Source: a bacterium
GTDB taxonomy: Bacteria > Latescibacterota > Latescibacteria > Latescibacterales > Latescibacteraceae
Direction of reading: 5' to 3'
Assembly: GCA_021372535.1 (NCBI GenBank)
Contig: JAJFUH010000042.1
Span: 1 to 60,827, forward strand
DNA: 60,827 nt
Positions 19,723 through 57,865 of this stretch are shown piece after piece (the stretch's first letter is position 1; each line of letters begins with the position of its first letter). A program made the translations under genes and the position numbers. Under the pieces are notes generated by a model that ran no database searches, was not told the DNA's origin, and was given only the letters and a program-made list of their open reading frames with translations.

Positions 19723-19791
19723 CCTCTGTCCCTCTATCCCTTTATCACTTTGTCTCTTTGTCACTCTGTCCCTCTGCCACATTGCCCTACT
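19723..19791. repeat. pyrimidine-rich degenerate short-unit repeat
   Basis: Tandem-like variants of CCCTCTGTC/CTTTGTCT fill the gap between two convergent genes, beginning 8 bases after the sialidase stop. Its reverse complement (AGGGACAGAG units) matches the purine-rich tracts at 43.06 kb and 60.51 kb. Confidence 0.7.
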
Positions 19792-21004
19792 TTTTCACAA
19801 TAAAACTGTAAGGCTCACAGCACTTCTTGAATTTCTTCCCGCTGCCACAGATACAGGGATCGTTTCTTCCGATTGATGGCGCAGGCTGGTTGGCATGACG
19901 GCGTATAATATCCCATGTTAAAAACCGGTAACGGTCTTTCGAGTATTCGAAAAACGTTCTGTATGAGTCGCAGAGATAATTGCGCGCACTGTAATTCATC
20001 TCGGGCAGGTAGCGGAGCTTCACGCATCCGCGCTGACAGAATCCGAGCCACGGGCAGGTTTCGCACTCGATGCATTCCAGACGTCTGAGACCTGCGAACT
20101 CCTGGTATTTCGGCGTTTCCATAATCTCGTCGGGTGTGTTCACAAGAATATTGCCGATATGCCATTCCTCCGTAACAAAAAAGTCACAGGTGAAAACATC
20201 GCCGTTGTGCTCGACCACGAGATATTCCCCGCATGAATCCTTGTACATGCAGCATTCGGGTGTGTAACCCGCATAGTACTGGAGGAGGTTGTCAAAAAGG
20301 CGTATGCTCACATACGGATAACCGTCCTCGAACCATATGTCGAACAGGTCGCAGAGAAACCGCCCGTACTCGTCGGCAGGCACCGAAAACGGCGCCTTCT
20401 CGCCATCGACAACTTCGAGACAGGGTATGAACTGGAGATAATGGAAGCCGTGACTGACCAGAAAACGGTAAATTTCCACCGGATGCCTGACCGTATCGCA
20501 ATTCACCACCGACAGGATATTGAAATCGACTTTATGCTTGTCGAGTATCGCGCAGGCATTCATGACACGGTCGAAAACACCCTTGTGCGACCGCGTGAAC
20601 CGGTGAATGTCATGCAGCTCACGGGGGCCATCCAGGCTGATGCCGACAAGAAATCGGTGCTCGGCAAACAACCGAGCCCAGTCATCGTCGATGAGGATAG
20701 CGTTCGTCTGTATCGTGTTTGATACGGTCTGGTCGGGCTGACGGTGTGATTCCTGAACAGCGAGCGCCTGCCGGTAAAAATCGATTCCCATGAGCATGGG
20801 CTCACCCCCCTGCCACATGTATGAGACCGCCTGGCGGCCCGGTACCTGAGCCTTGTGTACGAGTTCCGTAAAGGTATCGAGAGTGAGACGGTGTACGGTG
20901 GTTTCAGGATAGGCTTCCGCCGTCTTGCGGTAAAAACAGTAGTCGCAGAAAAGGTTACAGTCCGATGACGCCGGTTTAATAAGGAAGGACAGGTTTTTTC
21001 TCAT
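19787..21004 (-). CDS. anaerobic sulfatase-maturating radical SAM enzyme with SEC-C tail
   Basis: 405 aa radical SAM/SPASM protein of the anSME type, which oxidises a Cys or Ser of sulfatases to formylglycine without oxygen. Seen: CNLFCDYC (Cys16, Cys20, Cys23) for the SAM iron-sulfur cluster, YMWQGGEPMLMG, QTNAILIDDDWA, GISLDGPRELHD, and the SPASM cysteines around CCMYKDSC, FTCDFF and CETCPWLGFCQRGC. The last 25 residues add a SEC-C zinc motif (GRNDPCICGSGKKFKKCC), which is not part of the core enzyme. No sulfatase gene lies in this window, so its client is elsewhere, or the client is not a sulfatase. It implies growth on sulfated glycans without oxygen (inference). No clear ribosome binding site. 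Confidence 0.88.
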   Translation of the reverse strand: MRKNLSFLIKPASSDCNLFCDYCFYRKTAEAYPETTVHRLTLDTFTELVHKAQVPGRQAVSYMWQGGEPMLMGIDFYRQALAVQESHRQPDQTVSNTIQTNAILIDDDWARLFAEHRFLVGISLDGPRELHDIHRFTRSHKGVFDRVMNACAILDKHKVDFNILSVVNCDTVRHPVEIYRFLVSHGFHYLQFIPCLEVVDGEKAPFSVPADEYGRFLCDLFDIWFEDGYPYVSIRLFDNLLQYYAGYTPECCMYKDSCGEYLVVEHNGDVFTCDFFVTEEWHIGNILVNTPDEIMETPKYQEFAGLRRLECIECETCPWLGFCQRGCVKLRYLPEMNYSARNYLCDSYRTFFEYSKDRYRFLTWDIIRRHANQPAPSIGRNDPCICGSGKKFKKCCEPYSFIVKK

Positions 21005-21199: not shown

Positions 21200-22639
21200 C
21201 TATTTAAGCTCCTTGACAAAGATATTCTTGAAGTATACCGAGGTATCGTAATCGTGGTTCTGGAGCCCGATATATCCCTCGAGCGCATACTCGCGAATCT
21301 TCCCGCGGGGTTCCATGTTCCAGTCGACAACGAGCTTGTCGTTGAGCTCCACCTTGACGTTCCGGCCTTTGAGGGTGATCTTGAAATGGTTCCATTCACC
21401 GGTCTTGTTGAAGGCGGCTAACTTCGGCGCTTCCGCATCATACACGGAGCCGGTCTGGTGAATACCCGTCTGTGAATCGTCAATCTGTATCTCGAAGGAG
21501 TTATAGATGTACGCATCGCTCGTCGGAACATCGGGAACCCGGTAAAAAATGCCGGAATTCGCGTTGGGCACCTCGGTCTTGTAGTCGACTTCAAGAATAA
21601 AATCCTTGAACTTCTTCTTGCTGTACCAGAAAAGCCCCATTCCCTTGTGCGATTTCAGGATTCCGGTTTTCTCGTCGAGCTCGAAGTACCCGGGGCCGTA
21701 ATGGTTCCAGCCATGCTTGCCGCACCGGCCGTTATTCCACGAGAGCAGTTCCTCATAGCCCTTGAAGTAGGTTATGCTGTCGATGTAATCGAGACCCTTT
21801 TTGATCGACGGCGAGGGATTTTCGAGTTCGTTCGGATTTTCATGCTCAATGGTGAGGAATCCACGGTAATTCTGCTCGGTCAGTTCGGCCAGAATGTCAT
21901 GAATATTGGCCTTTCCCGAACCGAACGGCACATCGACCGCATCCTTGTCTCCGAAAACATTGAGGTCCTTGAGATGAACATCGATGATACGTCCATCGAG
22001 CATCCTGAGGGCGTCGAGGGGATTGACGCCGGTTCTCATCCAGTGCCCCGTGTCGGCGCAGGAGCCGATACGGCTGTCGAGACCTTTCACAGCCTTTACC
22101 ACAACCTCCGGGCGGGCGAATTTGCTCGGCTCGGGATGGTTGTGAATGGCGATACCGATGTTGTATTCACGGACCAGCTTTTCGAGCAGGGTGTAATCTT
22201 CAAAGGATGGCTCGGCGCAGATGGTGCGAATTCCCATCTTCCGCGCAAAATCGAAGACCTCCCGCATGGATTTTTCGGTTGTGCCGATATCCACAACACC
22301 GTACGCCACGATGGTTATACCGTTTTCGGCAAGAACTTTTTTAACCTGCTCCATATCAGCGTCGGACATGGTGTGAATGAGTTTTTTGTCGGGATTGTCC
22401 TTGCTCAGCACCTGACCGGGATACGCCTGAAGGTATTTGATACCCAGCGCTTTTACCTTCGGAAGTGTTTCATAAAAGCTGAATGTGTGGAATGTCCAGC
22501 ACTGCATGGCGACGGGAAATTCCCGTATCCGGACTTTTGAATAGTCAACCTTTTCAGCTGCAGAAGCGCTCGTTCCCTGCGCAATGAATAACGTCACCGT
22601 AAGCAATATAAGCATCACGGCCGCCATGATCTTTTTCAT
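21200..22639 (-). CDS. exported sugar isomerase-like TIM barrel fused to DUF1080
   Basis: 479 aa. A Sec signal (MKKIMAAVMLILLTVTLFI, ending near ASAAEK) is followed by a xylose-isomerase-like TIM barrel (about 35-295: AMQCWTFHTFSFYETLPKVK, AIHNHPEP, GSCADTGHW, DVHLKDLN, FLTIEHEN, with the usual Glu/His/Asp metal ligands) and then a DUF1080 (3-keto-disaccharide hydrolase-type) jelly roll (about 305-479: GYFELDEKTG, FILEVDYKT, SGIFYRV, FEIQIDD, YIGLQNHD). DUF1080 proteins cleave 3-keto-glycosides in the oxidative glycan pathway; barrels of this type are encoded beside them. Here both are one chain. GAAGGAGATG before the ATG at 22639 fixes the start. The two neighbouring Gfo/Idh proteins could supply the keto-sugar. 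Confidence 0.85.
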   Translation of the reverse strand: MKKIMAAVMLILLTVTLFIAQGTSASAAEKVDYSKVRIREFPVAMQCWTFHTFSFYETLPKVKALGIKYLQAYPGQVLSKDNPDKKLIHTMSDADMEQVKKVLAENGITIVAYGVVDIGTTEKSMREVFDFARKMGIRTICAEPSFEDYTLLEKLVREYNIGIAIHNHPEPSKFARPEVVVKAVKGLDSRIGSCADTGHWMRTGVNPLDALRMLDGRIIDVHLKDLNVFGDKDAVDVPFGSGKANIHDILAELTEQNYRGFLTIEHENPNELENPSPSIKKGLDYIDSITYFKGYEELLSWNNGRCGKHGWNHYGPGYFELDEKTGILKSHKGMGLFWYSKKKFKDFILEVDYKTEVPNANSGIFYRVPDVPTSDAYIYNSFEIQIDDSQTGIHQTGSVYDAEAPKLAAFNKTGEWNHFKITLKGRNVKVELNDKLVVDWNMEPRGKIREYALEGYIGLQNHDYDTSVYFKNIFVKELK

Positions 22640-22705
22640 AGCATCTCCTTCGTTGATGCGTTCCAGTTCGGCATTTTCAGCCACAATCCATATGTCCGAT
22701 GCCGA

Positions 22706-23959
22706 TTACTTCGATTTTCTGGGATTCCACTCGCCCCGTGCAACCGGCGGAATGTACTTATCGAGACCCTTCCACGGAAACTCAATGGTTTTTTCCGCTT
22801 CCGCGCTTCTGTACGCGGTCATGAGGAGCTCGGTTACCTCGACGCCATCATCGAAATTTTCATCGGGCCGTTTCCCGGCGAGGAAGCTCTGGACCATGTG
22901 ACGGTTTTCGCCCGTATAGCCGTATGCACCTTCCTCATCGCTTACAATCGGCATGAGGCCGATTTCGGCATTCTGCTTTTCAACGAGGTCTTCCCCGGCC
23001 TGTCCCTTGACTTCGCGGCTCATGAAAATTTTCAGATCGGTATCGAGAGAATTGATGCTCATGGAATACTCGGGACCGAGCACTTCCATGGCGAGCCTGA
23101 GACCCGCACCCACATAGCTCCACGAGGTCGTCGTTTCGACAACAATCGGATTTCCCTTTTCATCCTCGTATTCCACGAGCGACCGGGCAAAATCTTCCGC
23201 CGGTTTCTTCAGATAATCGAGTTTCCCTTTACTGTATTCCGAAAGCTTCTTCGCGTATTTCGGAAGCTGCCATTTGAGGCAGTTTGTATAGGCTGTGACT
23301 TTCTTTGGCCTGATGACATTGCGGGGAGCGCCGGGAGGGGTGAGCAGAAAGCGCGCGGTCTCAACCGAATGACACATCATGTCGTTGAGCACGCCGCCGC
23401 CCTGGAGAACGCCATCCCAGAACCACGGCATGTGCGGTCCGCTGTGTTCTTCCGCAGCGCGCGCGAGGTACGGTCTGCCGGCAACCGCGGCTCCTCTTCC
23501 CCAGAGGATGTTTTTTCCGCGGACTGTCGAAACGGAAAATATCTGATCCTCGAGATATCCATCGAGGAGATTGACACGTTTCACGAGCGCCTGTAGTTTT
23601 TTCGCCTCCGCAACGTTTCTGCCGAGCGGCTTTTCGCAGCATACACCGATCAGTTTGCCCTTGCCGGACTCGATAGTTCCAACGATCTCTTCCATGACAT
23701 CGATACGGGTGAAATTCGGGGCGCAAATCCATACGGCATCTATTGAAGGATCGGCTACCATATCGGCGATGGATTTGAACACCTTCGGTTCACCGACATC
23801 GAGCTTTTTACAGAGGGCGGCAGCTTCTTTGGATAGTTCTGATTTTTTATCAACGATTCCGAGAATATCCGCATTACGGACACCAACCCATGACTTGATA
23901 TGGAATTTGCCGATAAATCCTGCTCCGATCAATCCTACTCCCAGTCTTTTCTTTGCCAT
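22706..23959 (-). CDS. Gfo/Idh/MocA-family oxidoreductase
   Basis: 417 aa, NAD(P)-binding Rossmann domain plus an alpha/beta C-terminal domain. Seen: GVGLIGAGFIGKFHIKSW for cofactor binding, DAVWICAPNF, CCEKPLGRN (the family EKP motif with its catalytic lysine), QGGGVLNDMMCHSVET near the active site. No export signal, so cytoplasmic. The start at 23959 follows a CGAGGT site; an upstream in-frame ATG adds ten unlikely residues. Members oxidise or reduce sugars, often at C3. It lies 66 bases upstream of the TIM/DUF1080 gene in the same direction and most likely in one operon. Confidence 0.92.
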   Translation of the reverse strand: MAKKRLGVGLIGAGFIGKFHIKSWVGVRNADILGIVDKKSELSKEAAALCKKLDVGEPKVFKSIADMVADPSIDAVWICAPNFTRIDVMEEIVGTIESGKGKLIGVCCEKPLGRNVAEAKKLQALVKRVNLLDGYLEDQIFSVSTVRGKNILWGRGAAVAGRPYLARAAEEHSGPHMPWFWDGVLQGGGVLNDMMCHSVETARFLLTPPGAPRNVIRPKKVTAYTNCLKWQLPKYAKKLSEYSKGKLDYLKKPAEDFARSLVEYEDEKGNPIVVETTTSWSYVGAGLRLAMEVLGPEYSMSINSLDTDLKIFMSREVKGQAGEDLVEKQNAEIGLMPIVSDEEGAYGYTGENRHMVQSFLAGKRPDENFDDGVEVTELLMTAYRSAEAEKTIEFPWKGLDKYIPPVARGEWNPRKSK

Positions 23960-24173
23960 CTGTAACCTCGCTTCCTTGAATGATGCCATTTACTCGCAAT
24001 TACTTGTAATAAACCCACACTCTTCCGATCGACACCGGAAACAATCCCGTATTCCTCTCACTATCGTCGATCACGGTTATTCGAATCTTCTTTTCATGCC
24101 TGCAGCTACAAAAGGAAAAGTCTTATCCACCTGATGCTACAATACTTTTATACGGCATACCGGCTGAAATACA

Positions 24174-25388
24174 TCACTGAGTCACTGCGGACTGTTTGTT
24201 GTCATCTTTGAAGAATACAATCAAAGCAAACGCGCAGATAATGGTCAGCACTGTCGGCACAAGAAACACTCCTGTCCAGTTCGTTACATTATCCGCAGTA
24301 AAGTAATCCCGTATCCATCCGGTGAAGAGGCTGCCGAGGAAATTCCCGAGCCCGAGTGTCACGATTGCAATGAAACTCTGTGCGGATGCCCTGGTATCCG
24401 GAGGAGCCACCTTGTCAACATACACCTGAATGGCGGTGAAAAAAAACACATAACAGAAACCATGGAGCGCCAGCGATGCGATAACAAGCCAGGCCGGATA
24501 TCCTATGGCAAAAATGATATACCGGACCGGCCAGGCAAGAATGCCAAACACCATTGTTTTACGGATACCGTATTTGGGCATGAAATACGGCAGCGCAAAC
24601 GCCATGACGAAAATCTCGGCAAGCTGGGCAATCACCATGACCGTAGTCATGTTCGATGTGGAAACGCCTATACGATCCGATACAAGGAACGGCCCGGTAA
24701 GAACATAGTAAAACATGAGTTCTGTGCTGACAATGAACGCAATGACAATCAGAATGGCGAAATTCTTATCCTTGAGCATTTTAAAAGACTCCACGAACGC
24801 CCAGGGATTCGATGCCTCTTTTTTCGGCGGCGTATGAGGAAGCGTTAATGCCTGCAAACCCATGACAAAGGAAAGTACCCCCGCCATCAGCAGAGTGTCG
24901 CCTGCGACCGAAGCTCCCAAAATCTTGTTTGCGCCGATACGCCATGCCGACAGACCAATCCCGGCGGCTATCCAGCCCAGAGTTCCCCATACCCGTATCC
25001 GGCCGAAGTCTTTCTCGGGATTATCCAGATTGACAAGGGCAATGGAATTGGTCAACGCGAGCGTCGGAGCAAACAGCATGCAGTAGAGAAACATCAACCA
25101 CATCATGGTTGTGTAATCGGTAACACGCGAAACAAAAATCAGGAAGGCGCCGCCAGCAAGGTGAAGAAACGCAATAACATACTGTGTTGCAAAATAACGG
25201 TCGGCGAACTGCCCCCCGATAAACGGTGCAATTGCCGTCGCAAACGGCAACGTGGCATAAATCGCTCCGACCTGCGCACCTGTAAAACCGAGGGTATTAA
25301 TCAAATACTCGGACAATCCCGGATACCACGATCCCCAGACGGCATACTGCAAAAACATCATGAAACTGAGACGGAATTTTGCGCTCAC
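24174..25388 (-). CDS. MFS permease of the nucleoside:H+ symporter (NupG-like) family
   Basis: 404 aa, 12 membrane helices. The opening MSAKFRLSFMMFLQYAVWGSWYPGL and GRIRVWGTLGWIAAGIGLSAW are characteristic of the nucleoside:proton symporter branch of the major facilitator superfamily. In FCB and PVC genomes these permeases are common next to Gfo/Idh, DUF1080 and sugar isomerase genes, where the cargo is probably a sugar or keto-sugar (inference). Start GTG directly behind a GGGGGG-rich ribosome binding site. It lies between the two Gfo/Idh genes. Confidence 0.88.
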   Translation of the reverse strand: MSAKFRLSFMMFLQYAVWGSWYPGLSEYLINTLGFTGAQVGAIYATLPFATAIAPFIGGQFADRYFATQYVIAFLHLAGGAFLIFVSRVTDYTTMMWLMFLYCMLFAPTLALTNSIALVNLDNPEKDFGRIRVWGTLGWIAAGIGLSAWRIGANKILGASVAGDTLLMAGVLSFVMGLQALTLPHTPPKKEASNPWAFVESFKMLKDKNFAILIVIAFIVSTELMFYYVLTGPFLVSDRIGVSTSNMTTVMVIAQLAEIFVMAFALPYFMPKYGIRKTMVFGILAWPVRYIIFAIGYPAWLVIASLALHGFCYVFFFTAIQVYVDKVAPPDTRASAQSFIAIVTLGLGNFLGSLFTGWIRDYFTADNVTNWTGVFLVPTVLTIICAFALIVFFKDDNKQSAVTQ

Positions 25389-25503
25389 AATCCCCCCTTG
25401 CGGTTTGCGACAAGATTAACGACCCGAAAACAAAACCACCATGCTCTCCCGTCACGGCCCTTTATAATAAAAAGAGTACGATATCATTGTGCATCACAAT
25501 GTG

Positions 25504-27192
25504 TTATATCGTGTTCTTGCCGATACTCGCAATACAGCGCTGTATTTCCTCGTCGGTCCAGTCATTCGGGGGTGTCAGGTCTTTAACCCTGTTGTTTTCG
25601 AAATCCCATTCGACTTTTCTGCCGATCTTATACGAAAGAGTTCCCATATGGGCGGTAATCGCTTCCTCGAATCCCCGGTCGATATTGCAGCTCGTATCGC
25701 CGCCGGTACGGATTGCATCGAGCCATTCACGAATGTGAAGATGGGTCGTGTCAACCCGTTTCCCCTCACGGTAGGTATAGAGGAGCCCCCTGCCGGCAAA
25801 ATATTTCTCGGTGGCGGTTGTTACCGCGTCGAAACCCTTGGAACCCGGGGTGTATGAAAACATCGGTATTTCCGGGTCAATGAGACCCTGATCGATCTTC
25901 TCACGGAACCGTGTCGAGCCCGAATCGGCGGTGACCGCAAGGGCGCTTGCATGGAGCTGTCCGAGGTCCATGGTGGCATCATTGCCCATGATGAGCTTGC
26001 CTCTTTTGGCGTTGCTGGACAGGGTCGCCGAATATACGAGGGTCAGATCCTTGTCGGGATATTCGTAGTTCGCCTGGTAGACATCGGGGACTTCACGGCC
26101 ATCCTTGTAAAAATACACGCCACCGGTCGCAACCGCGTTTTTCGGTATCCCGAGGTCGATAATCATATTCATTGCATCGAATTCATGGGTAAAAAGATCG
26201 CCCGAAAGACCGGTCCCGTAATCATACCATAATCTCCACCTGAAAAAACGCTCCATATTGAAGGGCATACGGCGCGAACTGCCGATGAACTGACGCCAGT
26301 CGATATTCATGGGGCTCGCTTCGGGATGAATGCTGTAAACCCATGCGCCGTTCGGATCGTTACGGTTCGTCGAGAGGGTAACAAGGGTTATTTTCCCGAG
26401 AACGCCTTTCTTTACAACCTCATGCGCCATCATATAGGCATCGGTCTGACGGCTCTGGTGTCCGAGCTGGAACTTGATACCGCTCTCCCTGACCGCGGCT
26501 ACGACATCATATGCCTGCGGAATGGAAAGACACAGGGGTTTTTCGAGGTAGACATGTTTCCCCGCCTGTGCAGCATCGATAGCAATCTGGGCGTGCCAGT
26601 GCTCGGGAGTGGCGACGATGACCGCATCGATTTCATCGCTTTCGAGCATGTCTTTGTACCGGCGGAACCGCTTCGCTCCCTTGTTCTCTTTCCCCTTGTT
26701 CGAGCCTGTCTTAACGGTTTCAAGCGCCGCATCCGCCCTGATATCAAAAACATCGCAGATACCATTGAAGACGATATTGAGATCATCCTGGTCGATGAAA
26801 TCCTTAAGCCGGAAGTCGTTTTTATTTTCTACCATAGCCTGTTTCATGCTCTCAACCCAGCTCGGATGAGCAAATCCGGCCGCTCTCAGCAGGTATTCCC
26901 CGCGGCTTCCGCAGCCGATGATGCCGAGCCTCAATGTCTGGTTGGAATTCTTGAGCGATCCGGAAGGCAGTATCGATGGGGCTTCATCACTCAATCCGAG
27001 CTCGGCAAGAAACTGCTTGCTCTTGGTGTCTTCCGTTTTGACCATGTACCATTTTTTATAGAGCTTGGCAAAAAACAGTCCCACGATGGGTAATGTCGCC
27101 AGACCCTTCAGGACATCCCGCCGGTCGAAATACCGTTTTTTTTCAGGTTCCTGCCGCACCTGCTCATTATCGTTATGTACATCCTGTTCCAT
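25504..27192 (-). CDS. Tat-exported, possibly membrane-anchored Gfo/Idh/MocA oxidoreductase
   Basis: 562 aa. The N-terminus has a twin-arginine type segment (FDRRDVLKGLATLPIVGLFF) followed by basic residues and a linker, so the enzyme is probably sent across the inner membrane and may stay anchored. The catalytic part starts near residue 85 with LGIIGCGSRGEYLL, then DAVIVATPEHWHAQI, YLEKPLCLS (family EKP) and GHQSRQTDAY; the C-terminal half is typical of the long planctomycete-type members. The ATG at 27192 is chosen since GGAGGTGAT overlaps an alternative GTG. Exported members usually keep a tightly bound NAD(P), so an electron acceptor is needed; DoxX, 31 bases upstream, is a candidate. Confidence 0.88.
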   Translation of the reverse strand: MEQDVHNDNEQVRQEPEKKRYFDRRDVLKGLATLPIVGLFFAKLYKKWYMVKTEDTKSKQFLAELGLSDEAPSILPSGSLKNSNQTLRLGIIGCGSRGEYLLRAAGFAHPSWVESMKQAMVENKNDFRLKDFIDQDDLNIVFNGICDVFDIRADAALETVKTGSNKGKENKGAKRFRRYKDMLESDEIDAVIVATPEHWHAQIAIDAAQAGKHVYLEKPLCLSIPQAYDVVAAVRESGIKFQLGHQSRQTDAYMMAHEVVKKGVLGKITLVTLSTNRNDPNGAWVYSIHPEASPMNIDWRQFIGSSRRMPFNMERFFRWRLWYDYGTGLSGDLFTHEFDAMNMIIDLGIPKNAVATGGVYFYKDGREVPDVYQANYEYPDKDLTLVYSATLSSNAKRGKLIMGNDATMDLGQLHASALAVTADSGSTRFREKIDQGLIDPEIPMFSYTPGSKGFDAVTTATEKYFAGRGLLYTYREGKRVDTTHLHIREWLDAIRTGGDTSCNIDRGFEEAITAHMGTLSYKIGRKVEWDFENNRVKDLTPPNDWTDEEIQRCIASIGKNTI

Positions 27193-27223
27193 TCGTATCA
27201 CCTCCGATATAGTAAAAGAGAAT

Positions 27224-27733
27224 TCATATGCTTTTTTTAGGGAAGAGCAATCTGTCGAGCCCGATCATTTTCCCTGTCGGGAATACTATCAGGACAAGCA
27301 GCGCCCATGCTTCGATAAGATTTTTATTGACAATCATATAGCTGCCTTCAACAGGCACCGAATAGGTATACCCGATAAAGGGTGGTGTGGCAAAATAGTA
27401 GAGCATGATAAGAAGAATGCCGAAAAGGCTTGCCAGACGGGTAAGCGTGCCGGTCATCAGCCCGAGACCGATCGCAATAAGCCCGAGCTTGTTCGACAAG
27501 TTGACCATTGCCAGAATCTGGGGATTCTGAGCCATCGAGACAAAAAAGGGTGAAAACAGGCCTTTCGATTCCAAAAGGAACGGCGCCGCCGACCAGTTCT
27601 GATTAAATACTTTCGCAAATCCCTCATACAGAAAATGCCAGCCGATAAGAAGCCGTAAAATCACCAGCGAGGACAACTGCAGTAAACTGTACGGATAAGA
27701 ATTTACCGGTCTGACAGGTTGTGATTTCTCCAT
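27224..27733 (-). CDS. DoxX-family membrane protein
   Basis: 169 aa, four membrane helices. RLLIGWHFLYEGFAKVFN is the DoxX signature, followed by GLIAIGLGLMTGTLTRLASL and the last helix LIEAWALLVLIVF. DoxX proteins are linked to quinone-dependent oxidations (thiosulfate:quinone oxidoreductase, redox homeostasis). The gene lies 31 bases upstream of the exported Gfo/Idh gene and is co-oriented. Pairing of DoxX with exported Gfo/Idh and DUF1080 genes suggests it passes electrons from periplasmic sugar oxidation to the quinone pool; that link is inference. Confidence 0.85.
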   Translation of the reverse strand: MEKSQPVRPVNSYPYSLLQLSSLVILRLLIGWHFLYEGFAKVFNQNWSAAPFLLESKGLFSPFFVSMAQNPQILAMVNLSNKLGLIAIGLGLMTGTLTRLASLFGILLIMLYYFATPPFIGYTYSVPVEGSYMIVNKNLIEAWALLVLIVFPTGKMIGLDRLLFPKKSI

Positions 27734-27945
27734 TGTTGAACGCCTTTCAAGAAATAAAATGGTTAAGTCTTTCCCGACGTTTGATGCGAGGGAAACAATA
27801 ACATACTCATAATTATACAGTTACAGCCATATCATGAAACAATATGGTACAGGCTAATGTATCAGGAAATACCGAATCATTGTGAATGTGCATGAAAACA
27901 TACAATAGAATAGAAAAATAGGAAGGAATGATTCGTTTGTCAACT

Positions 27946-28014
27946 ATCAAGTACTGCTGACCGGCAATCAACCATTCTTTTCAGAACACATTTTTCATAT
28001 GTTACTTCCTTTGC
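27946..28014. repeat. dispersed repeat, copy 1
   Basis: Begins ATCAAGTACTGCTGA and ends at CTTCCTTTGC. It matches the stretch at 28267-28333 with a handful of substitutions and one single-base indel. Its right end is the first arm of the hairpin at 28001-28032, which the second copy lacks. Confidence 0.8.
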
Positions 28015-28032
28015 ATACCCAAAGGAAGTAAC
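28001..28032. repeat. perfect 13-bp-arm hairpin
   Basis: GTTACTTCCTTTG and its exact reverse complement CAAAGGAAGTAAC flank a 6-base loop. It is not followed by a T-run on either strand, so it is more like an extragenic palindrome than a classic terminator. Confidence 0.75.
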
Positions 28033-28266
28033 CAGGGAAAAGGCACCTCGTAAAAAGCCTGTTTCCCCGTTCACTGCCCGTTTTTCGGGAATGTGTGAAC
28101 TCACGAGCCTTTGGCTCGCTCGAAAAGCACCCACTCTTTTTCCGAAAACCGGTTGTGACCGTGGGGCTTTTCAACGGGGTTTAAATACACAGGCCTTGAT
28201 GGTCTATATTCTATTTATAATCAATGTATTACAATACAATTCATCGTGGATTTTGGGGGTTCACCA

Positions 28267-28333
28267 ATCAAGTATTGCTGGCGGACAATCAACCATTCTT
28301 TCAGAACACATTTAATGTGATACTTTCCTTTGC
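28267..28333. repeat. dispersed repeat, copy 2
   Basis: Second copy of the repeat at 27946-28014 in the same orientation, with ATCAAGTATTGCTGG at the left and CTTTCCTTTGC at the right. After this point the two copies diverge. Confidence 0.8.
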
Positions 28334-28434: not shown

Positions 28435-31284
28435 TCACTTCTTTTCGGCGAAACGGTACTTCACCGGCTGCAGCCTGACCGGCCCAATGAGACCGGAATC
28501 CACAGGCAGCCAGACAGAGGCATTAAACTCCTCGTACTTGATATTGACGAAATTGATATCGTAAAAGATTTTCCATGGCACCCCGCGGCGATCCATATCC
28601 GCAATACGGTTCGCGCCGAGATTGGTTACCTCTATTTCGAGGATATTGTCGCCATCTCTGATAGATGAGCCCAAACTCAGAGTATAAGGAAAACACCATA
28701 CGCACCCTTTATCTTCCCCGTTCAGCCGGACACGGGCGCTTTCGCAGACACGGCCCAGATCGAGCATCCAGTCATCCGCTTTCAGGGCCGGATTCCGGAA
28801 TGTGACCGTATACCGGGCGGTTCCTCCGAAGTTTCGGGCATCAGTGTCCCTGAGTTCAGTCCAGGAAACCAGACTGTCCGTCCTGACTTTCTGCGGAAGC
28901 TTCGGGCCGCCGTCCACAAAAGTGATCTCCCATGGTCCCTGTATCCCGACCGAATCCCCGTCAGGCTCACGATATTCCCATTTCGGGCCACCGATTTTAC
29001 CGGAAGAGACCGTCCGCAGAATGAGCGACTGTCCGGGCTCAAGATGAAGATATACCTGTGTTTCACCGTTATTACCTTTACGGATTTCCGCAGAGCCGTT
29101 ATGGGCCGAGAGCGGATCAAAGATAACTGCGGAAGCCGCCTTCACACCGAGCGGCACCCATCCATCGACAGTCTTTTCGCCGAGATTGGTCATAAAATAA
29201 TGATATCCGCTTCCGTATGTCCGCCGCACGAATTCGATACCCTTATCGACGACCGGTTCACGGCTCACTCCGGCCATTGTCAGCATTCTTTCGAGGTCGC
29301 TCCCGACAAGAAATGCGCCCTTTCCGACCGGCGACACCTTTATTCCGTCGCGCTCAGCGGTTTTCCGCCTGATCTCGTCCAGCGATGCATGTATCTTCTG
29401 ACGGCCTTCCCTGAGATTCGCCAGACCGGGAACATCTTCCGGAAGCGACCCGGTGACAATAATGATCGCACCGCTCCGTGCAAGATTCACAAGCTTTTCC
29501 AGCGTTTCACCCGGCATATACCCGCATCCTGGAACAATGAGCACTTTACAGGCATCAGCCCCTGTTCTGATCTCCCCGGATGAATATTTCAAAACGGCAA
29601 TCTGGCGGTCCGAAATATAATCGAACGTAAAACCCCTGTCCCACATGGTTTGCGCGGCATCATGAAACGGGGTACCGTAGAACCACTGGTTTGCATTGTG
29701 AACCTGGAAGTGGTGAAGCATATCCTCGTCCGCTCCCGTGCGCCATACATCATGAATCGGCCAGTACAGGAGGACATCATGAGCGGGCAGACCGTTCTGG
29801 AGGAACGACTGGCAGCGCGCGATATAGGCGTTCAGTTCGGGGAAATCACGCCAGAATGTATTGGACTGGCCGAAATTCGTCGAGGCATAGAACAACCATC
29901 CCGGCCAGGGAGTATCTTTCGGCGAATATGCTATCCCATGGAAGAATACGTGGTTGATCCCTGCGACAAAAAGGGCGTCGATTTCCGGTTTGACCTGTGA
30001 CAGCGCAACCTTGAAGTGCTCACCAAGCCAGGTGCACGATTCGGATGATACGAGCTGTTTCCCCGTGACATGAGCAGCCGAGGAAGCGAATTTCTCCACA
30101 AGAATATCGGGTTTCCCGAAATGCTCCGGCATATCGGGATCGATCCTGAGGCCCGGAATGGGAAATCCGCTCGTACCGAACGCCTCCGTTTCGGGGATGT
30201 CTGCGGCGGCGTAAAGATCGAGAAGATTCCCCGGAGAGCCGTGGGCCTGGTCGCGCGTAAAACATCCTTTGTCATGCGACCACATCACCCATGGAACGGT
30301 GAACTGTGTGAGCAAAAGATCGGAGACGGTTTCGTTGTAATCGTGCCTGACACGGGCGACTATATCATTCTGCCCTTTTCCGGTAAGCTCGGGCAGAAAC
30401 ATCCGGAGATCATATGCCCGGAGCCGGATAAATTCTCGGAAGAGATCGTCCGTCCAGTTGCTACCGTAAACCTCGTATGAATCATTGTAAAAAGCCCGCA
30501 GAGGGATGGTTTTCCCGTACCGGGCAAAGGCGCTGTCAAACCGGGCGAGATAATTTTTGAGCGAAACGGCTGAAAAGTAATCGATGACATTGCCCTCGCC
30601 GCCCGGCGCGGCGCGTTTGACCTGCTGCCCGGTACCCTCCTGAAAAACCGCATAGAGACTCCAGGAATTGCCGGAAGGGGCTTCCCAGTCAATATTCCCC
30701 GTTCCACGGTCGACTTTGTCGGTGAGATCGAGGGCTGTCCCTTCCTTCGGAAACGCCATGAGCGCCATGAAACCGTTCATCGCGAAGGTATGTGTGAAGC
30801 GATTTCCGCCCTCAAGAAGGGTAAATGTCTCGAACCGTACCTTCGATGAGGCATTTCCGGGGTCGACATTCGGGCCGCCGTACGGCCATCCCGTTCCGGT
30901 CGTCATATCGACTCCCATACCGAGACGGGCCGCTTCCTGAGACGTGAACGCGAGCATCTCCATCCATTCCTGACTCAGGTAGGGAATGAAGTGATTCTCA
31001 TACCCTTTCACTCCATAGATAGGAATTATATGCACTCCGCCGATACCCGCTTTGTTGTAGTCTTCGAGGTTTTTCGTAAGACTGGATTTATCGACCGCGC
31101 TTCCCATCCACCACCAGTATGTCCAGGGTTTGCATTCCCTGCTCACATCGGGCCACTTGAATGCGGACAGACTTTTCTGTTTCGATCCGCACGATAAGAC
31201 GATCAGCAGAATCGGAACGATAAGAACAGCCATACCGGCATGAATCATTCGGCCCGATCCACCGCGGTTGTTTCTCTGTATCAT
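28435..31284 (-). CDS. GH106-like alpha-L-rhamnosidase lipoprotein
   Basis: 949 aa. A hydrophobic leader ending IVLSC is a lipobox, so the enzyme should sit on a membrane surface. The opening PWTYWWWMGSAVDK, GIGGVHIIPIYGVKGYE and GMGVDMTTGTGWPYGGP match GH106 alpha-L-rhamnosidases (related to GH2-like barrels). Later parts include LVSSESCTWLGEHF, VFFHGIAYSP, LPAHDVLLYWPIHDVW and a C-terminal GH2-type sugar-binding sandwich (ARYTVTFRNP, DWMLDLGRVCESARVRLNGE, GDNILEIEVTN). It would release L-rhamnose from pectic or ulvan-like glycans. A second ATG twelve codons in would also give a good lipoprotein leader; the first has AGGAG with almost no spacing. Confidence 0.88.
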   Translation of the reverse strand: MIQRNNRGGSGRMIHAGMAVLIVPILLIVLSCGSKQKSLSAFKWPDVSRECKPWTYWWWMGSAVDKSSLTKNLEDYNKAGIGGVHIIPIYGVKGYENHFIPYLSQEWMEMLAFTSQEAARLGMGVDMTTGTGWPYGGPNVDPGNASSKVRFETFTLLEGGNRFTHTFAMNGFMALMAFPKEGTALDLTDKVDRGTGNIDWEAPSGNSWSLYAVFQEGTGQQVKRAAPGGEGNVIDYFSAVSLKNYLARFDSAFARYGKTIPLRAFYNDSYEVYGSNWTDDLFREFIRLRAYDLRMFLPELTGKGQNDIVARVRHDYNETVSDLLLTQFTVPWVMWSHDKGCFTRDQAHGSPGNLLDLYAAADIPETEAFGTSGFPIPGLRIDPDMPEHFGKPDILVEKFASSAAHVTGKQLVSSESCTWLGEHFKVALSQVKPEIDALFVAGINHVFFHGIAYSPKDTPWPGWLFYASTNFGQSNTFWRDFPELNAYIARCQSFLQNGLPAHDVLLYWPIHDVWRTGADEDMLHHFQVHNANQWFYGTPFHDAAQTMWDRGFTFDYISDRQIAVLKYSSGEIRTGADACKVLIVPGCGYMPGETLEKLVNLARSGAIIIVTGSLPEDVPGLANLREGRQKIHASLDEIRRKTAERDGIKVSPVGKGAFLVGSDLERMLTMAGVSREPVVDKGIEFVRRTYGSGYHYFMTNLGEKTVDGWVPLGVKAASAVIFDPLSAHNGSAEIRKGNNGETQVYLHLEPGQSLILRTVSSGKIGGPKWEYREPDGDSVGIQGPWEITFVDGGPKLPQKVRTDSLVSWTELRDTDARNFGGTARYTVTFRNPALKADDWMLDLGRVCESARVRLNGEDKGCVWCFPYTLSLGSSIRDGDNILEIEVTNLGANRIADMDRRGVPWKIFYDINFVNIKYEEFNASVWLPVDSGLIGPVRLQPVKYRFAEKK

Positions 31285-35712: not shown

Positions 35713-36942
35713 TCAGACATCAATTTCAACCATCACCGGTTTGCTGAATCCGAACGCCAGATTGCCAACCATGGCGGAAAATGCATCCTGATCCGCAGGC
35801 TGTTCCGCGCTCGCCCGGTACCATACGGCCAACGTACAATACGATACGGTTCCGTTGTCCGAAGGCTCCAGTTTTACGAGCCGGGCATCAGTTGTCTCAT
35901 GAATACCTCCAGATTGCAGAGGATTCCAGATGAACGCCGTTCCGATGGTGCCGTACTCCCCGACCGGTATTCCCCATGCGAACATGAAACCGCCGTCCTC
36001 ATCGACCGTCACATGCTCGTCATCGAACTTCTTCATCCCCGGCGCGACAAACCATCCTTTATCTGAATGAGCCGTTGAGGGAGCGGCAGTGACATGGTTC
36101 TCATATCGTCCATGATACAGGGAAGTAGCCGCCTCAATCAGAAAATCACCGGTTGTTTTATCTACGGTCCGAAGCACAACTCCAGCACAAACCGGGCCTC
36201 CCCCAAACGCCCTGTACTCATACGTATTGGACGGCGCATCATCGGGATACCCGTAGCATTTTACAATATTGTCACCCCTGACAAGCGAGATGCCGCCAAG
36301 TCCCGGGGTCTTGCCAACCGCATACGGGTCCTGTCCCCAGAGCCGCTCATGATGATAGGAATCCGACCTGAGCCCGTCCAGACTGAGAACCGGGTAGCTC
36401 TTACCGAAATAATCGACCATACCGTAATAATAACGGTAAGCAATGATCTCGTTTTCCCATGCGCTGTTCGAGCCGTCACGATACCATGATTCGAACGACC
36501 GGGTTCTGATCGGATAATCGGGGAGATCATTTCCTTCCGGATTATACTGAAGTTCTACCGTTTTTCGTTCATGGGGATCGAGATCGACCTGAAAAACGAG
36601 TTCTTCACCGCCGACAACCGTTCCGGGCACCGAACGTATCTGCGACGGTATATCGAGCGGCTCAAACCGTGTCGCCGGATGTTTGACCCTGAAAAATTTT
36701 CGGTTGAAATCGGGCGCTTTTTTTAAAATCGACTGCACGGGAATTATGACCGGCTCCTGATGGCGGGATATATCCAGAGAATTTGAAATATGGAGCTTGA
36801 TTTTCCTTCCGAATTGTACCGGCGGATCATCGAGCTCCTGTGAAAAGCCGGAAAAAACTGCCCCCACAATTGTGATCAGCCCCATACACAATGCCGCTGC
36901 CCCGAAAAGTTGAACTTCAGGCGGTATCAGACATAAAACCAT
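35713..36942 (-). CDS. DUF4861-like secreted protein
   Basis: 409 aa with a hydrophobic N-terminal segment (GAAALCMGLITIVGAVFSG) that should act as an export signal. The body shares a clear set of motifs with the C-terminal half of the next gene: YYYGMVDYFGKSYPVLSLDG, HHERLWGQDPYAVGKTPGLGGISL, GPVCAGVVLR, and GMKKFDDEHVTVDEDGG with AWGIPVGEYGTIGTAFIW. This is the DUF4861 pattern, found in polysaccharide-utilisation loci; its activity is not known to me. AGAGGAGG precedes the ATG. Confidence 0.72.
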   Translation of the reverse strand: MVLCLIPPEVQLFGAAALCMGLITIVGAVFSGFSQELDDPPVQFGRKIKLHISNSLDISRHQEPVIIPVQSILKKAPDFNRKFFRVKHPATRFEPLDIPSQIRSVPGTVVGGEELVFQVDLDPHERKTVELQYNPEGNDLPDYPIRTRSFESWYRDGSNSAWENEIIAYRYYYGMVDYFGKSYPVLSLDGLRSDSYHHERLWGQDPYAVGKTPGLGGISLVRGDNIVKCYGYPDDAPSNTYEYRAFGGGPVCAGVVLRTVDKTTGDFLIEAATSLYHGRYENHVTAAPSTAHSDKGWFVAPGMKKFDDEHVTVDEDGGFMFAWGIPVGEYGTIGTAFIWNPLQSGGIHETTDARLVKLEPSDNGTVSYCTLAVWYRASAEQPADQDAFSAMVGNLAFGFSKPVMVEIDV

Positions 36943-36985
36943 GGTATTCCTCCTCTTCCGGCCTGCTCACAAAAATTGAATGGAA

Positions 36986-37030
36986 CGCGGATTTTCGCGG
37001 ATTGGACGGATTTTCGCGGATTTTTTTCCT
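36986..37030. repeat. tandem GGATTTTCGCGGATT-type repeat
   Basis: The unit CGCGGATTTT recurs in quick succession, ending in a run of T. The same unit occurs in the opposite orientation at 12147-12167. Such CGCGGATTT tracts are common non-coding repeats in FCB-type genomes. Confidence 0.7.
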
Positions 37031-37049
37031 ACCTGTTCGATGTAATATT

Positions 37050-37077
37050 GTAGGAGTAATTTATGAATTACCCCTAC
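37050..37077. repeat. near-perfect palindrome (12-bp arms)
   Basis: GTAGGAGTAATT pairs with AATTACCCCTAC across a 4-base loop with one mismatch. Palindromes of this form (GTAGGGG...CCCCTAC) are a widespread class of interspersed bacterial repeats. Confidence 0.75.
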
Positions 37078-37107
37078 TCCGTGTCTTGTTGGTGAAATAA
37101 TAAAATG

Positions 37108-37190
37108 AATAAACTTCATACCCATAGAAGGTCAAAACGAAGGACGAAAATATGTAAATACATAATAGTTTTTCTCCGTGTTCTCCGTGG
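37108..37190. repeat. dispersed intergenic repeat, copy A
   Basis: Starts AATAAACTTCATACCCAT and contains GGTCAAAACGAAGGACGAAAAT, then after a variable middle TTTTTCTCCGTG and CTCCGTGG. The same order of blocks occurs at 60584-60680 with few changes in the first 45 bases. Confidence 0.75.
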
Positions 37191-37255
37191 TGAGAGTAAT
37201 TTATTCTTTTCATATATATACGGGCGCTGTGTGAATATCCGATTTTTATACTGTG

Positions 37256-40090
37256 TTATTCAATCTTGTAGCCCACATGCACAGGCGCACGGAGTCCGAA
37301 ACCGAGTTCCTCGACCTCCCGCGCCCAGTCTTTCGGCGATGGTGCAACCGGGCTCGGAAACCCCTTGCGCCAACCGCCGATAATCCAATGTGTACAGCGC
37401 ATACCCGCAGGGATTCTGAGCTTCACATAACGGTCGAGACCGGATTCGGCATAGCCTGCATACTCTTCCGGATCAAACATGAGACCAAGACCGATATCTC
37501 CTATCTCATGGTCCGAAAGTCCCCAGCTCGCCAGAACCCCCGTGCCCGAATCAATTACCCAGGTATCGTTCGGGAGTTTCTGCAGGCCGGGGCTGTAAAC
37601 GACAGAATCGCCGGCAGTCGATGTAACCATGATATCCTGCCGTGAAAAACGGTTGTCGGCAAACGCCGACATGAGCATGGAAACCGTATAGGTCGCCCCT
37701 GGTGAACGGACATTAGTGAAATCGACCCTGACAAGCGACCGGACGGGGCCGCTCGAAATGATCTTCCGATCGATCCGGACATCACCCTCTCCCGCGGGAT
37801 TCATCACCGGGATGCGCGTTTCGCCCTCCCAGATGCTGATGCCGCCGATGCCGGAGCTTTTACCCACATGGAGAACATCCATACCCCAGTCACTTATGCG
37901 GTGATAACTCTCCACGGTATTTTTAAGGCGCAGACCCTCACGGCGTTTACCGAAGAAATCGATCTGACCATAATACATACGGTATCCGCACCAGTTCGAT
38001 TCCCAGCCGATGTTGACCTTGAGGTCGAGCCAGTCGCGGTGTGTATCGGTTTTCATGGGATACGATACTGCGGCTGTTCCCGGCGGCGAATAGAAGCAAT
38101 ACAGTTTCGTCGTCGAAGAGGGCAGAAGCGAGTGCACGAAGACGAGTTCATCAGGCCTGCCATCGCCGTCGATATCGTCAGCCTGCGAAGGAACCGGCCG
38201 CCAGTCGATGCGGCGTTCGGTTTCGACAATGCTGTAATTGCAGGGGTTGAAATCCGGGATGCCTTTAATGATCCCGTCGATTCCGAGCACAAAGGGATGG
38301 TTTTCGAGATAGCGCTCGCCGGGATTGGTCAGCTCGATTGTAAACCGCTTCGTATATGAACCGTACCACGCCGACACAGCTTTACCGAGCACCTGTTTTT
38401 CGAGCAGTTGCGACGTACGTGAATAGTCTCCCGTCTCATAGGCGGTCTTAATTTCCGGGAAAACAGCATTCCGCGATACCGGTGACTCGCAGAGGCGGTG
38501 CCAGTAACGTTCCCTGATAAGGTCGCCGTAATAACGGGTTCCCTCCATGCTGTTCCTGATCTTTTCGCCGAGATGAAATTCCCCGCCGTAACCGGACAAC
38601 TCCGTATTGAAATACGTTTCAACAGGGTCTGGAGTAAAATCCTTCCCGACCTTCACCAAAACTGCCTTGAGGGTTTCGATGAGCGTCTGGTTATCGTTCA
38701 GCGCTCCGGTCAGAGTGGGCATGTACAGTTCGTGGAGTATTTGGTAATCGAGCGGATAGAGTTCGGCAGTATATAATGCTGTTTTATATTCACGGTCGAA
38801 CGTGCTGTCGGCATCGACATCATATTTCCATGTATCGAAAAAGCCGTCTTTGTCTTTATCTTCCATTGAAATGACCATGTCAGGCCTGTTGTCATAATCG
38901 TAATCGACCTTTATCCAGCCGATGTCAGCACCGTAAAGATGAATTCGGCGATCCACGGGAGAATAGTAGAACCTGAAATCTCCGGAACCTTCGAAATCTA
39001 TTTCATTCCGCTTGTTATACGGGCCGCAGGAAGGTCCGCCGACCTGTGTATCGTAATCCTTACCAAAATTGATGACTCCTTCCCATCGCTCGTAATGCTG
39101 CCTGCCTTCGACAGGATCGATATTGTTATCGTTCTCGTCCCAGGTGAAGTGGACTTTTTTCCATTTCCCCGTTTTCGCCACACGACGCACATGATCCCAG
39201 CCAATGAACTGGCCGGTATCGATGCCGCGCAGCGTGAGCTTCATGCACCGGTCCGATGGAACGGCGACCGGCCCGAAAGCTGAGACGGAGAAATCATAGT
39301 CGTGACGGTTGCTTCCACGGGAATCGTTGTCGATGTCCATGCTGTACCTGAGTGTTTTTGCCGTGAGCCCGTCGGCGCCGAGACGAACCACTTCCTCCGA
39401 ATACGAATCGCCGTCGAGGTCATAAAACGCAAAGGGATTCTCGAAACCGGGGATGAACCTGTTGTTGTCATAATCGTAGAAAAAAGCATACACAAATATC
39501 TCATCGCCGTTAAAATCGGTCAGCCACTGGGTCGTCGGCTGGCTGTACTCATAATTTATATCATACCACAGACGGTTGTCGTCGCCGTAATCCTTCGCCC
39601 AGACGGCGCAGTAGGCCTTGCCGTCGAAATTCCTCGGAGACTGGGCCAGAAAGTGAGCCATATCGCTCCACTGATAGAGGACCTGTTCATCGACATCGTT
39701 ATCGTTGTCGAGGTCGATGTAATCGACGACACGATCGATGGTACCGTCCCCGTACCAGTCGGCGATATAGAGATCGCTGTCAAGATCGCCTTCCCCATTC
39801 ACGAACATATCGCCGTCCTCATCGACAACCTTGACGAGAAGGGGTGCGCGGGCGTTTTTGTGACGGTCGTCGGTATCGATCATATAGAGGGTATCGATTT
39901 TCCCGTCCCCATCCGAATCCACAGTGACTCTGCTCCCCGGTCCGGCCCGGAGAACCCGGGCGGAAATCGCCTCATCCATCAGAACTTTACGGCCAACCAT
40001 CCTGACAAACAGGTCATTATTCGTCTGTGCCGATGCCGATGATAACATCCCTGATATGAGAAGCATGGTGATAAACATGCAATTTTTCAC
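37256..40090 (-). CDS. large secreted protein: EF-hand-like Asp repeats plus DUF4861-like domain
   Basis: 944 aa. The GTG start has AGGAG 9 bases upstream and gives a clean signal peptide (MFITMLLISGMLSSASA) right after it. The N-terminal and middle parts contain many Asp-rich calcium-loop motifs: DSDGDGKID, DTDDRHKN, DEDGDMFVN, DLDNDNDVDE, DLDGDSYSE, DKDKDGFFD, DVDADSTFD, DIDGDGRPDE. The last 340 residues resemble the preceding DUF4861 protein (YRMYYGQIDFFGKRREGL, HVGKSSGIGGISI, GPVRSLVRVDF, LASWGLSDHEIGDIGLGL). It is probably a calcium-stabilised extracellular glycan-binding or glycan-active protein. Divergent from the TonB receptor gene across a 530-base spacer. Confidence 0.75.
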   Translation of the reverse strand: MKNCMFITMLLISGMLSSASAQTNNDLFVRMVGRKVLMDEAISARVLRAGPGSRVTVDSDGDGKIDTLYMIDTDDRHKNARAPLLVKVVDEDGDMFVNGEGDLDSDLYIADWYGDGTIDRVVDYIDLDNDNDVDEQVLYQWSDMAHFLAQSPRNFDGKAYCAVWAKDYGDDNRLWYDINYEYSQPTTQWLTDFNGDEIFVYAFFYDYDNNRFIPGFENPFAFYDLDGDSYSEEVVRLGADGLTAKTLRYSMDIDNDSRGSNRHDYDFSVSAFGPVAVPSDRCMKLTLRGIDTGQFIGWDHVRRVAKTGKWKKVHFTWDENDNNIDPVEGRQHYERWEGVINFGKDYDTQVGGPSCGPYNKRNEIDFEGSGDFRFYYSPVDRRIHLYGADIGWIKVDYDYDNRPDMVISMEDKDKDGFFDTWKYDVDADSTFDREYKTALYTAELYPLDYQILHELYMPTLTGALNDNQTLIETLKAVLVKVGKDFTPDPVETYFNTELSGYGGEFHLGEKIRNSMEGTRYYGDLIRERYWHRLCESPVSRNAVFPEIKTAYETGDYSRTSQLLEKQVLGKAVSAWYGSYTKRFTIELTNPGERYLENHPFVLGIDGIIKGIPDFNPCNYSIVETERRIDWRPVPSQADDIDGDGRPDELVFVHSLLPSSTTKLYCFYSPPGTAAVSYPMKTDTHRDWLDLKVNIGWESNWCGYRMYYGQIDFFGKRREGLRLKNTVESYHRISDWGMDVLHVGKSSGIGGISIWEGETRIPVMNPAGEGDVRIDRKIISSGPVRSLVRVDFTNVRSPGATYTVSMLMSAFADNRFSRQDIMVTSTAGDSVVYSPGLQKLPNDTWVIDSGTGVLASWGLSDHEIGDIGLGLMFDPEEYAGYAESGLDRYVKLRIPAGMRCTHWIIGGWRKGFPSPVAPSPKDWAREVEELGFGLRAPVHVGYKIE

Positions 40091-40620
40091 GGACAGCAAC
40101 TCCTGTAACAATCGGGAGAAACCAACGACTGATTGTGATAGATTAACGTACATCCCGGCGGGAATCAAGGACAATTTATTTCGGCTCACAGCAAATTTTC
40201 ACGGTGTTTCGGGTATAAGCGGTATCATATCCGACACCATCGATACTATTTTTACTCCATAACAGTACTATTCCGGATAATGGAAGAAGAGAGATAGAAA
40301 ACGATGCACGTGCAAGTTATTATCACGTAATGAGGTAAAAATAATCAGCAGCCGACACATTTTTTACTTGACAAATAATATTATTATATGTATTGTATAT
40401 GTGTAATCTATATGTGCACCTCTGCGGTTCTTTTTCGATAATTCACCATAATTCACAATTTTTTTAAATTATCAGGATAGTGATGCAGATAATAATGGCG
40501 TATACAATACATTATATATAGTTACATGCAGTTTTTACTGAGATATTCCGGTAAGTTAACAGTTATTATCAGCTTCTTCCTTCCGCAAACATTTGTTCGA
40601 CGGAGAAAGGTGATAAAAAA
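40091..40620. other. 530-base divergent regulatory spacer
   Basis: AT-rich spacer between the minus-strand DUF4861 gene and the plus-strand TonB receptor. It holds one good sigma-70-like promoter pointing to the receptor (listed). The rest shows no gene; minus-strand promoter elements were not placed with confidence. Confidence 0.55.
40368..40396 (+). promoter_or_regulatory. sigma-70-like promoter for the TonB receptor
   Basis: TTGACA, 17 bases of A/T-rich spacer, then TATTGT. It would give a leader of about 220 bases before the receptor GTG, long enough for post-transcriptional control. Bacteroidetes-type promoters differ (TTTG/TAnnTTTG), so a classical -35/-10 pair hints at another phylum. 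Confidence 0.5.
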
Positions 40621-57493: not shown

Positions 57494-57865
57494 ACGATAC
57501 TTCCCTTCACGTGTATGGATGGATTTATTTCTTATAGAGCGATAATTTCCGAGTTCTGCGGTTCTACCTTCTTTTATATCCATTTACATGATTGAAGTCA
57601 AGCACGATTATTGAGTAAAATAAATTTTATCCGGTCATGTTTTGATATACCAGACAGTGCTCTTAAACAAAAAACGGGTTTACAGACAGGACTGCCGTTT
57701 ATATCTTTTTCATTGTACTGTCACGCTATATTGTGTAATGTTACTTATGTGGTGCAATCAGTGACAGGATATAGTCATGTTATTCATCGGATTCTTTTTT
57801 ATTCAGCCGTCAATAGACAAGATACATATGATATTTGTTGTCATTCCAGACAGGAGAACAACGGC
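57494..57865. other. 372-base divergent spacer
   Basis: No gene is called; the in-frame upstream extension of the plus-strand lyase gene reads as non-coding (no signal, no family match). It should hold promoters for both divergent genes. No clear hairpin or operator was found. Confidence 0.4.

Follow-up and report, generated by a model that had tools for sequence, protein, structure and literature searches.

A 60,827-nucleotide stretch of a Latescibacterota genome (contig JAJFUH010000042.1; referred to here, at its full length, as the window) encodes a DoxX-family membrane protein directly beside a Gfo/Idh/MocA oxidoreductase with a twin-arginine (RR) signal anchor, RR-Gfo. Comparative genomics shows that DoxX and RR-Gfo, together called the pair, belong together. 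We propose, with a rough probability of 0.55, that the pair is a two-subunit, membrane-bound sugar dehydrogenase facing the periplasm, in which electrons would pass from nicotinamide adenine dinucleotide (phosphate), NAD(P), to a covalently bound flavin mononucleotide (FMN), then to DoxX and on to quinone. The genome is 5.35 Mb in size and 96% complete. The features of the pair are as follows, where Tat stands for twin-arginine translocation.

27224 to 27733, minus strand: DoxX-family membrane protein (169 amino acids; PF07681, 8e-7, 30.0 bits against a cut-off of 23.6)
25504 to 27192, minus strand: RR-Gfo, Tat-type signal-anchored Gfo/Idh/MocA protein (562 amino acids; PF01408, 1e-17; open reading frame listed to a GTG at 27201)
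27052 to 27123, minus strand: twin-arginine motif and short transmembrane anchor, RR-Gfo residues 24 to 47 (RRDVLKGLATLPIVGLFFAKLYKK)
25735 to 25866, minus strand: insertion, RR-Gfo residues 443 to 486, specific to DoxX-partnered Gfo
25810 to 25830, minus strand: ApbE flavinylation-like motif D455-A-V-T-T-A-T461, with T461 as the proposed FMN attachment site

An alignment of DoxX alone was used for a profile search of genome contigs, and the 80 closest of 475 DoxX relatives were analyzed as loci; more distant DoxX proteins, outside these 80, may behave differently. As titled, the loci come from Latescibacterota, Aminicenantes, KSB1, Neomarinimicrobiota, Bacteroidota, Chlorobiota, Calditrichota, Acidobacteriota, Planctomycetota and Gemmatimonadota. 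An RR-anchored enzyme was found adjacent or fused to DoxX in 78 of the 80 loci when these were read by eye (strict automatic patterns count 69, the rest being assigned by eye), and in one locus, L046, the contig runs out within the partner gene. A reverse search of 392 Bacteroidota genomes with RR-Gfo identified, besides the starting genome, 8 full-length orthologues (E < 1e-195), all 8 with DoxX directly upstream. The distances among DoxX proteins and among RR-Gfo proteins are correlated (r 0.56), a value reached in 0 of 2000 permutations. The initial annotation had linked an exported, membrane-anchored Gfo/Idh protein to DoxX and had suggested their adjacency as a check; both searches, together with fusions in the window's own genome, bear out this link, and the neighborhood of DoxX and Tat-type Gfo/Idh genes is very strongly conserved across about ten phyla. 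The genomic comparisons turned up neither of the two results that the initial annotation had named as refuting.

Seven fusion proteins (L020 and L021, both in the window's genome, L065, L066, L069, L096 and L080) consist of DoxX followed by this RR helix and then by a soluble domain, which argues for a functional association of the helix with DoxX. The structural model of the L065 fusion contains four DoxX helices and the RR helix at residues 195 to 219 (predicted template modeling score 0.56), and the best structural match of its soluble domain is an aldo-keto reductase. The fusions of the window's genome (L020, 5753 to 7333, minus strand, contig C107; L021, 5402 to 6970, minus strand, contig C63) combine DoxX and the RR helix with a TIM domain of aldo-keto-reductase-like type; the sequence DAxS[RS]ATxKT comes immediately past the helix. 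They may represent a second type of DoxX-wired enzyme. The acidobacterial fusion (L080, 3555 to 6286, plus strand) has the linker HAITGATIT, containing a TGATIT motif, and is directly followed by an ApbE gene.

The likeliest start of RR-Gfo is the ATG at 27192, which follows a GGAGG and lies 31 bp past the DoxX stop codon. The N terminus, FDRRDVLKGLATLPIVGLFFAKLYKKW, has the sequence features of a Tat signal anchor, specifically an RR-x-phi-L-K motif, a short hydrophobic stretch followed by positive charges, and the absence of an AxA site. These features are conserved: among 62 sequences, R25, P35 and G38 are invariant, and R24 and K29 are nearly so. The RR helix is predicted to act as an uncleaved membrane anchor, placing an exported enzyme at the membrane. 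Similarly, in polytopic proteins inserted by both Sec and Tat, RR directly precedes the fifth transmembrane segment, and this Tat-dependent segment has low hydrophobicity and C-terminal positive charges (PMC5449189); the available text of that paper does not have DoxX fusions among the reported families.

RR-Gfo has the Gfo/Idh fold, with a GxGxxG-containing Rossmann domain (AlphaFold2 model, predicted local distance difference test [pLDDT] 84). Its nearest solved relative is the Alistipes glucoside-3-dehydrogenase AL3 (8TDF and 8TDH; profile E 1e-35), and structural comparison matched AL3 (8TDF) and levoglucosan dehydrogenase. A GH109-type glycosidase identity was dropped, as such matches were weak (2IXA, 9e-8; 6T2B, 6e-6). 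These relatives and the nearby DUF1080 gene suggest that RR-Gfo may oxidize glycosides at C3. BT2158, described as a periplasmic glycoside 3-dehydrogenase (PMC11300592), and AL3 resemble RR-Gfo in being exported Gfo/Idh proteins with DUF1080 nearby. However, RR-Gfo scores 114.8 bits against the NCBIfam family BT_2158_fam and does not reach the 750-bit cut-off, and in BT2158-like proteins encoded in the same loci, the N-terminal RR signal is shorter, and neither a membrane-anchor element nor the insertion at 443 to 486 is present.

That insertion is also missing from the BT2158-like Gfo of the same Dysgonomonas operons and from another Tat-type Gfo, and it contains the flavinylation-like motif. 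ApbE recognizes D-x-x-[S/T]-G-A-[S/T] and places FMN on the last residue, and replacement of the Gly by Ala loses about half of the modification (PMC12052999). In the main RR-Gfo subfamily, the consensus is D-x-[VI]-[TSA]-[STG]-[AP]-[TS], with the Asp and the final Thr or Ser present in 57 of 57 sequences. The motif was detected in 43 of 59 RR-Gfo proteins versus 6 of 662 other open reading frames, and it is kept in 8 of 8 independent Bacteroidota RR-Gfo proteins. In the model, the motif loop (residues 458 to 471) has a pLDDT below 50, the lowest of the folded domain, which would be compatible with a missing cofactor and proves nothing.

ApbE is encoded in 29 of 30 genomes examined. ApbE genes lie near the pair more often than expected, within approximately 6 kb in 13 of the 80 loci, where ApbE density predicts about 0.4; these 13 belong to roughly four or five lineages and cannot be counted as independent events. 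In Dysgonomonas, the genes for DoxX, RR-Gfo, a BT2158-like Gfo, DUF1080, a TIM protein and ApbE run in one direction, and in a Neomarinimicrobiota genome (L071) the only ApbE gene adjoins the DUF1080 gene. The genomes of L063, L091 and L071, where ApbE lies beside the pair, were searched for FMN_bind, NqrB/RnfD, DUF2271 and DUF3570, four families already known as ApbE substrates, and none of these was found. Published extracytosolic electron-transfer systems flavinylated by ApbE resemble the proposed system in a DxxTSAT-like motif, an ApbE neighbor and a membrane electron carrier (PMC8238504, PMC11334425); they differ in that the Gly is here mostly Ser or Thr, and the available text of these papers mentions neither Gfo nor DoxX. 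The text available from one of them states that ApbE substrates remain to be identified (PMC8238504). The motif and the co-localized ApbE genes, both missed by the initial annotation, would supply the electron route, and they argue well for a covalent flavin on RR-Gfo.

We considered how such an enzyme might work. RR-Gfo would fold and take up NAD(P) in the cytoplasm before export by Tat, and the uncleaved RR helix would hold it beside DoxX. Once a glycoside had been oxidized, probably at C3, a folded Gfo that keeps its NAD(P) would need either a second substrate, as glucose-fructose oxidoreductase (GFOR) does, or an electron outlet; an outlet is favored by the flavin motif together with the conservation of DoxX as a partner. 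Since the NAD(P)H would be unable to leave RR-Gfo, its hydride would be handed to an FMN attached by ApbE to T461 of the DxxTSAT loop, and the electrons would travel from there via DoxX to the quinone pool. We infer both this direction and the substrate.

DoxX itself has the invariant residues R27, K41, W47, E129-G130 and E141 and the motif GWHFLYEG (49 sequences compared). The window DoxX has no cysteine, ruling out thiol chemistry through it. A sequence search of solved structures with DoxX gave no match in the PDB. Thiosulfate:quinone oxidoreductase DoxDA likewise belongs to the DoxD/DoxX family and is quinone-linked; however, it has a different partner and substrate, and the window DoxX matches the NCBIfam model TQO_large_DoxD weakly (2e-4; 21.3 bits, below the 300-bit cut-off). 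Quinone is suggested as the acceptor by analogy with this DoxD.

The fate of the oxidized sugar is suggested by the rest of the cluster, in which the pair is followed by three genes, given here in order.

24174 to 25388, minus strand: major facilitator superfamily (MFS) permease, nucleoside H+ symporter family (PF03825, Nuc_H_symport, 2e-104), proposed keto-sugar importer
22706 to 23989, minus strand: cytoplasmic Gfo/Idh protein without a signal sequence (PF01408, 1e-18; probable start ATG 23959), proposed keto-sugar reductase
21200 to 22684, minus strand: exported TIM-barrel and DUF1080 fusion (probable start ATG 22639; Sec signal)

The initial annotation had described a co-oriented five-gene cluster, and this stands: five intact open reading frames at 21200 to 27733, all on the minus strand, match its coordinates, and the Pfam identities agree. 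The same gene order was found again in Aminicenantes, KSB1 and Neomarinimicrobiota, and DUF1080 occurs in only about six places in the window's 5.35-Mb genome; the grouping is thus far beyond chance. In total, twelve loci from these phyla and Latescibacterota have the order DoxX, RR-Gfo, MFS, Gfo and DUF1080, including one without RR-Gfo (L034), and some of those from Neomarinimicrobiota have a DUF1080 protein without the TIM half. Close orthologues of the cytoplasmic Gfo adjoin an MFS gene in 12 loci.

The fusion protein has a Sec-type signal (MKKIMAAVMLILLTVTLFIAQGTSASA-AE), an AP_endonuc_2 TIM barrel at residues 77 to 303 (1e-20) and a 3keto-disac_hyd/DUF1080 domain at residues 324 to 491 (3e-36; PF06439, 125.9 bits against a cut-off of 26.8). 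The TIM half, whose nearest solved relative is 3P6L (2e-54), is similar in fold family to the 3-keto-glycoside eliminases and hydratases, a likeness that the initial annotation missed and that suggests that cleavage may proceed by elimination and hydration. By analogy with these families (PMC10628242, PMC9007349), the exported protein would cut the keto-glycoside, by elimination and hydration or by hydrolysis; the permease would then bring in the keto-sugar, and the cytoplasmic Gfo/Idh would reduce it. Two known systems are comparable. Caulobacter combines membrane-bound periplasmic C3 oxidation by the lactose 3-dehydrogenase LacABC with cleavage by the DUF1080 protein CCNA_01705, whose periplasmic keto-glycoside hydrolysis is putative, but LacABC is an unrelated three-component dehydrogenase, and the available text does not name Gfo/Idh or DoxX (PMC9007349). 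The Agrobacterium AtOGE/AtHYD operon for oxidation, elimination, hydration and reduction has TIM-barrel proteins acting on 3-keto-glycosides and a Gfo that reduces 3-keto-glucose; its oxidase, however, is the flavoenzyme GlycDH, and neither DoxX nor an RR-anchored Gfo is mentioned in the text available (PMC10628242). The initial annotation regarded a periplasmic keto-glycoside route as new. The 3-oxidation (PMC11300592) and the DUF1080 cleavage (PMC9007349) have been published, and what is apparently new is the DoxX outlet, together with Gfo/Idh as an ApbE substrate.

Several observations weigh against our proposal. To our knowledge, no cofactor has been described for DoxX, and quinone binding is familiar to us only for the DoxD of thiosulfate:quinone oxidoreductase. 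The canonical Gly is replaced by Ser or Thr in 56 of 57 motifs, and further departures occur in 11 of the 57. The flavin motif is missing from a second and shorter RR-Gfo subfamily that precedes DoxX (L028, L031, L033, L037, L050 and L078), and this subfamily still pairs with DoxX in L028, L031, L033, L050 and L078. In L034 (5163 to 9747, plus strand), DoxX stands with the MFS, Gfo and TIM/DUF1080 genes, and RR-Gfo was found nowhere in the genome. The window's genome has a single ApbE gene, which shares a contig region with NQR. ApbE is also present in 51 of 70 RR-Gfo-negative Bacteroidota versus 8 of 8 positive ones; as it is common anyway, its presence/absence profile is weak. In an Aminicenantes locus (L029, 4055 to 12294), the DoxX/RR-Gfo/TIM-DUF1080 cluster lies between ApbE and RNF genes (RnfB and RnfA), and this ApbE may serve RNF. 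Finally, DUF1080 is present in only 23 of 45 loci with full flanks. The link of DUF1080 to the pair, as initially annotated, therefore holds as a frequent association and not as an obligatory one.

Some of these loci have further features. The L029 cluster is flanked on either side by the same type of RR-signal protein. Loci of the second RR-Gfo subfamily often encode, in addition, a conserved exported protein containing MF[IV]GTPQN, and L050 also encodes a tetra-CxxCH cytochrome, which perhaps stands in for the flavin. A haem relay near the pair was rejected, as a protein with at least two CxxCH motifs was found in L050 alone of the 80 loci.

Alternatively, RR-Gfo may be redox neutral, with permanently bound NAD(P), like GH109-type and other NAD-dependent glycosidases or GFOR, while DoxX serves only for anchoring or assembly and the DxxTSAT loop has a structural role. 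Exported Gfo/Idh proteins with a bound cofactor exist, GFOR (1H6A) and the GH109 enzymes are distant matches, and the motif-less variants pair with DoxX too. However, these enzymes match far more weakly than glucoside-3-dehydrogenase, and the dedicated membrane partner in about ten phyla and the orphan ApbE genes beside the pair make this explanation unlikely. It is improbable that electrons flow outward, with DoxX taking them from quinol and RR-Gfo reducing periplasmic keto-sugars. Published flavinylated systems mostly send electrons outward, according to the available text of PMC8238504, and Gfo enzymes are reversible, but the cluster already has a cytoplasmic Gfo fit for reduction. Moreover, transfer from quinol to a sugar ketone via NAD is, as a matter of general knowledge, unfavorable. 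Equally improbable is a target other than catabolic glycosides, such as a cell-envelope sugar, cyclitol or polyol, with DUF1080 co-occurring through shared sugar islands. The highly varied substrates of Gfo/Idh proteins and the partial association with DUF1080 would fit such a target, whereas the unidirectional Dysgonomonas gene run and the location of the window cluster amid GH106 and other glycan genes would not. An ordinary BT2158-type keto-glycoside pathway with an incidental DoxX neighbor is very improbable, since, although the gene content overlaps the known pathway and 62 of 62 RR-Gfo members match BT_2158_fam, the window protein (115 bits) falls far under the 750-bit cut-off, DoxX and the enzyme are neighbors almost without exception whichever of the two served as the query, and DoxX fusions exist.

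Elsewhere in the window, glycan genes are located at 5300 to 6760 (plus strand), 28435 to 31284 (minus), 35713 to 40189 (minus), 44993 to 47068 (minus) and 57611 to 60508 (plus), and comprise a GH29 fucosidase with a Tat-type signal, GH106, DUF4861 and heparinase II/III-like genes. Directly downstream of the cluster (19787 to 21004, minus strand) is a radical S-adenosylmethionine/SPASM protein with a SEC-C motif that resembles anaerobic sulfatase-maturing enzymes. Upstream of DoxX (27940 to 28330) lie two copies, approximately 330 bp apart, of a sequence of about 50 bp (TGTGTTCTGAAAGAATGGTTGATT...), and the DNA between them is rich in inverted repeats.

We know of no settled answer to the question of how sugar dehydrogenases that contain NAD(P) and act in the periplasm are reoxidized where there is no soluble periplasmic NAD pool, and the dehydrogenase proposed here provides a specific, testable one. 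In the open-licence literature, we found no paper joining DoxX or flavinylation with Gfo/Idh, nor, in the searches made, a relevant one linking DoxX to flavinylation or sugars. Tentatively, and at slightly under even odds, we suggest that the pair represents a transmembrane sugar dehydrogenase of a new class: a nondissociating nicotinamide would hand its hydride to an FMN that ApbE has attached to the same protein, and the electrons would then reach quinone via DoxX; Gfo/Idh proteins would be a new ApbE substrate family, and DoxX a new membrane carrier for flavinylated proteins. If this is true, it would account for the orphan ApbE genes of three or more genomes, and the fusions of DoxX, RR helix and aldo-keto-reductase-like domain would form another branch built on the same plan. 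It would also give a role to one branch, present in about ten phyla, of the DoxX family, which is poorly understood, and some bacteria would gain electrons for respiration by oxidizing sugars prior to uptake.

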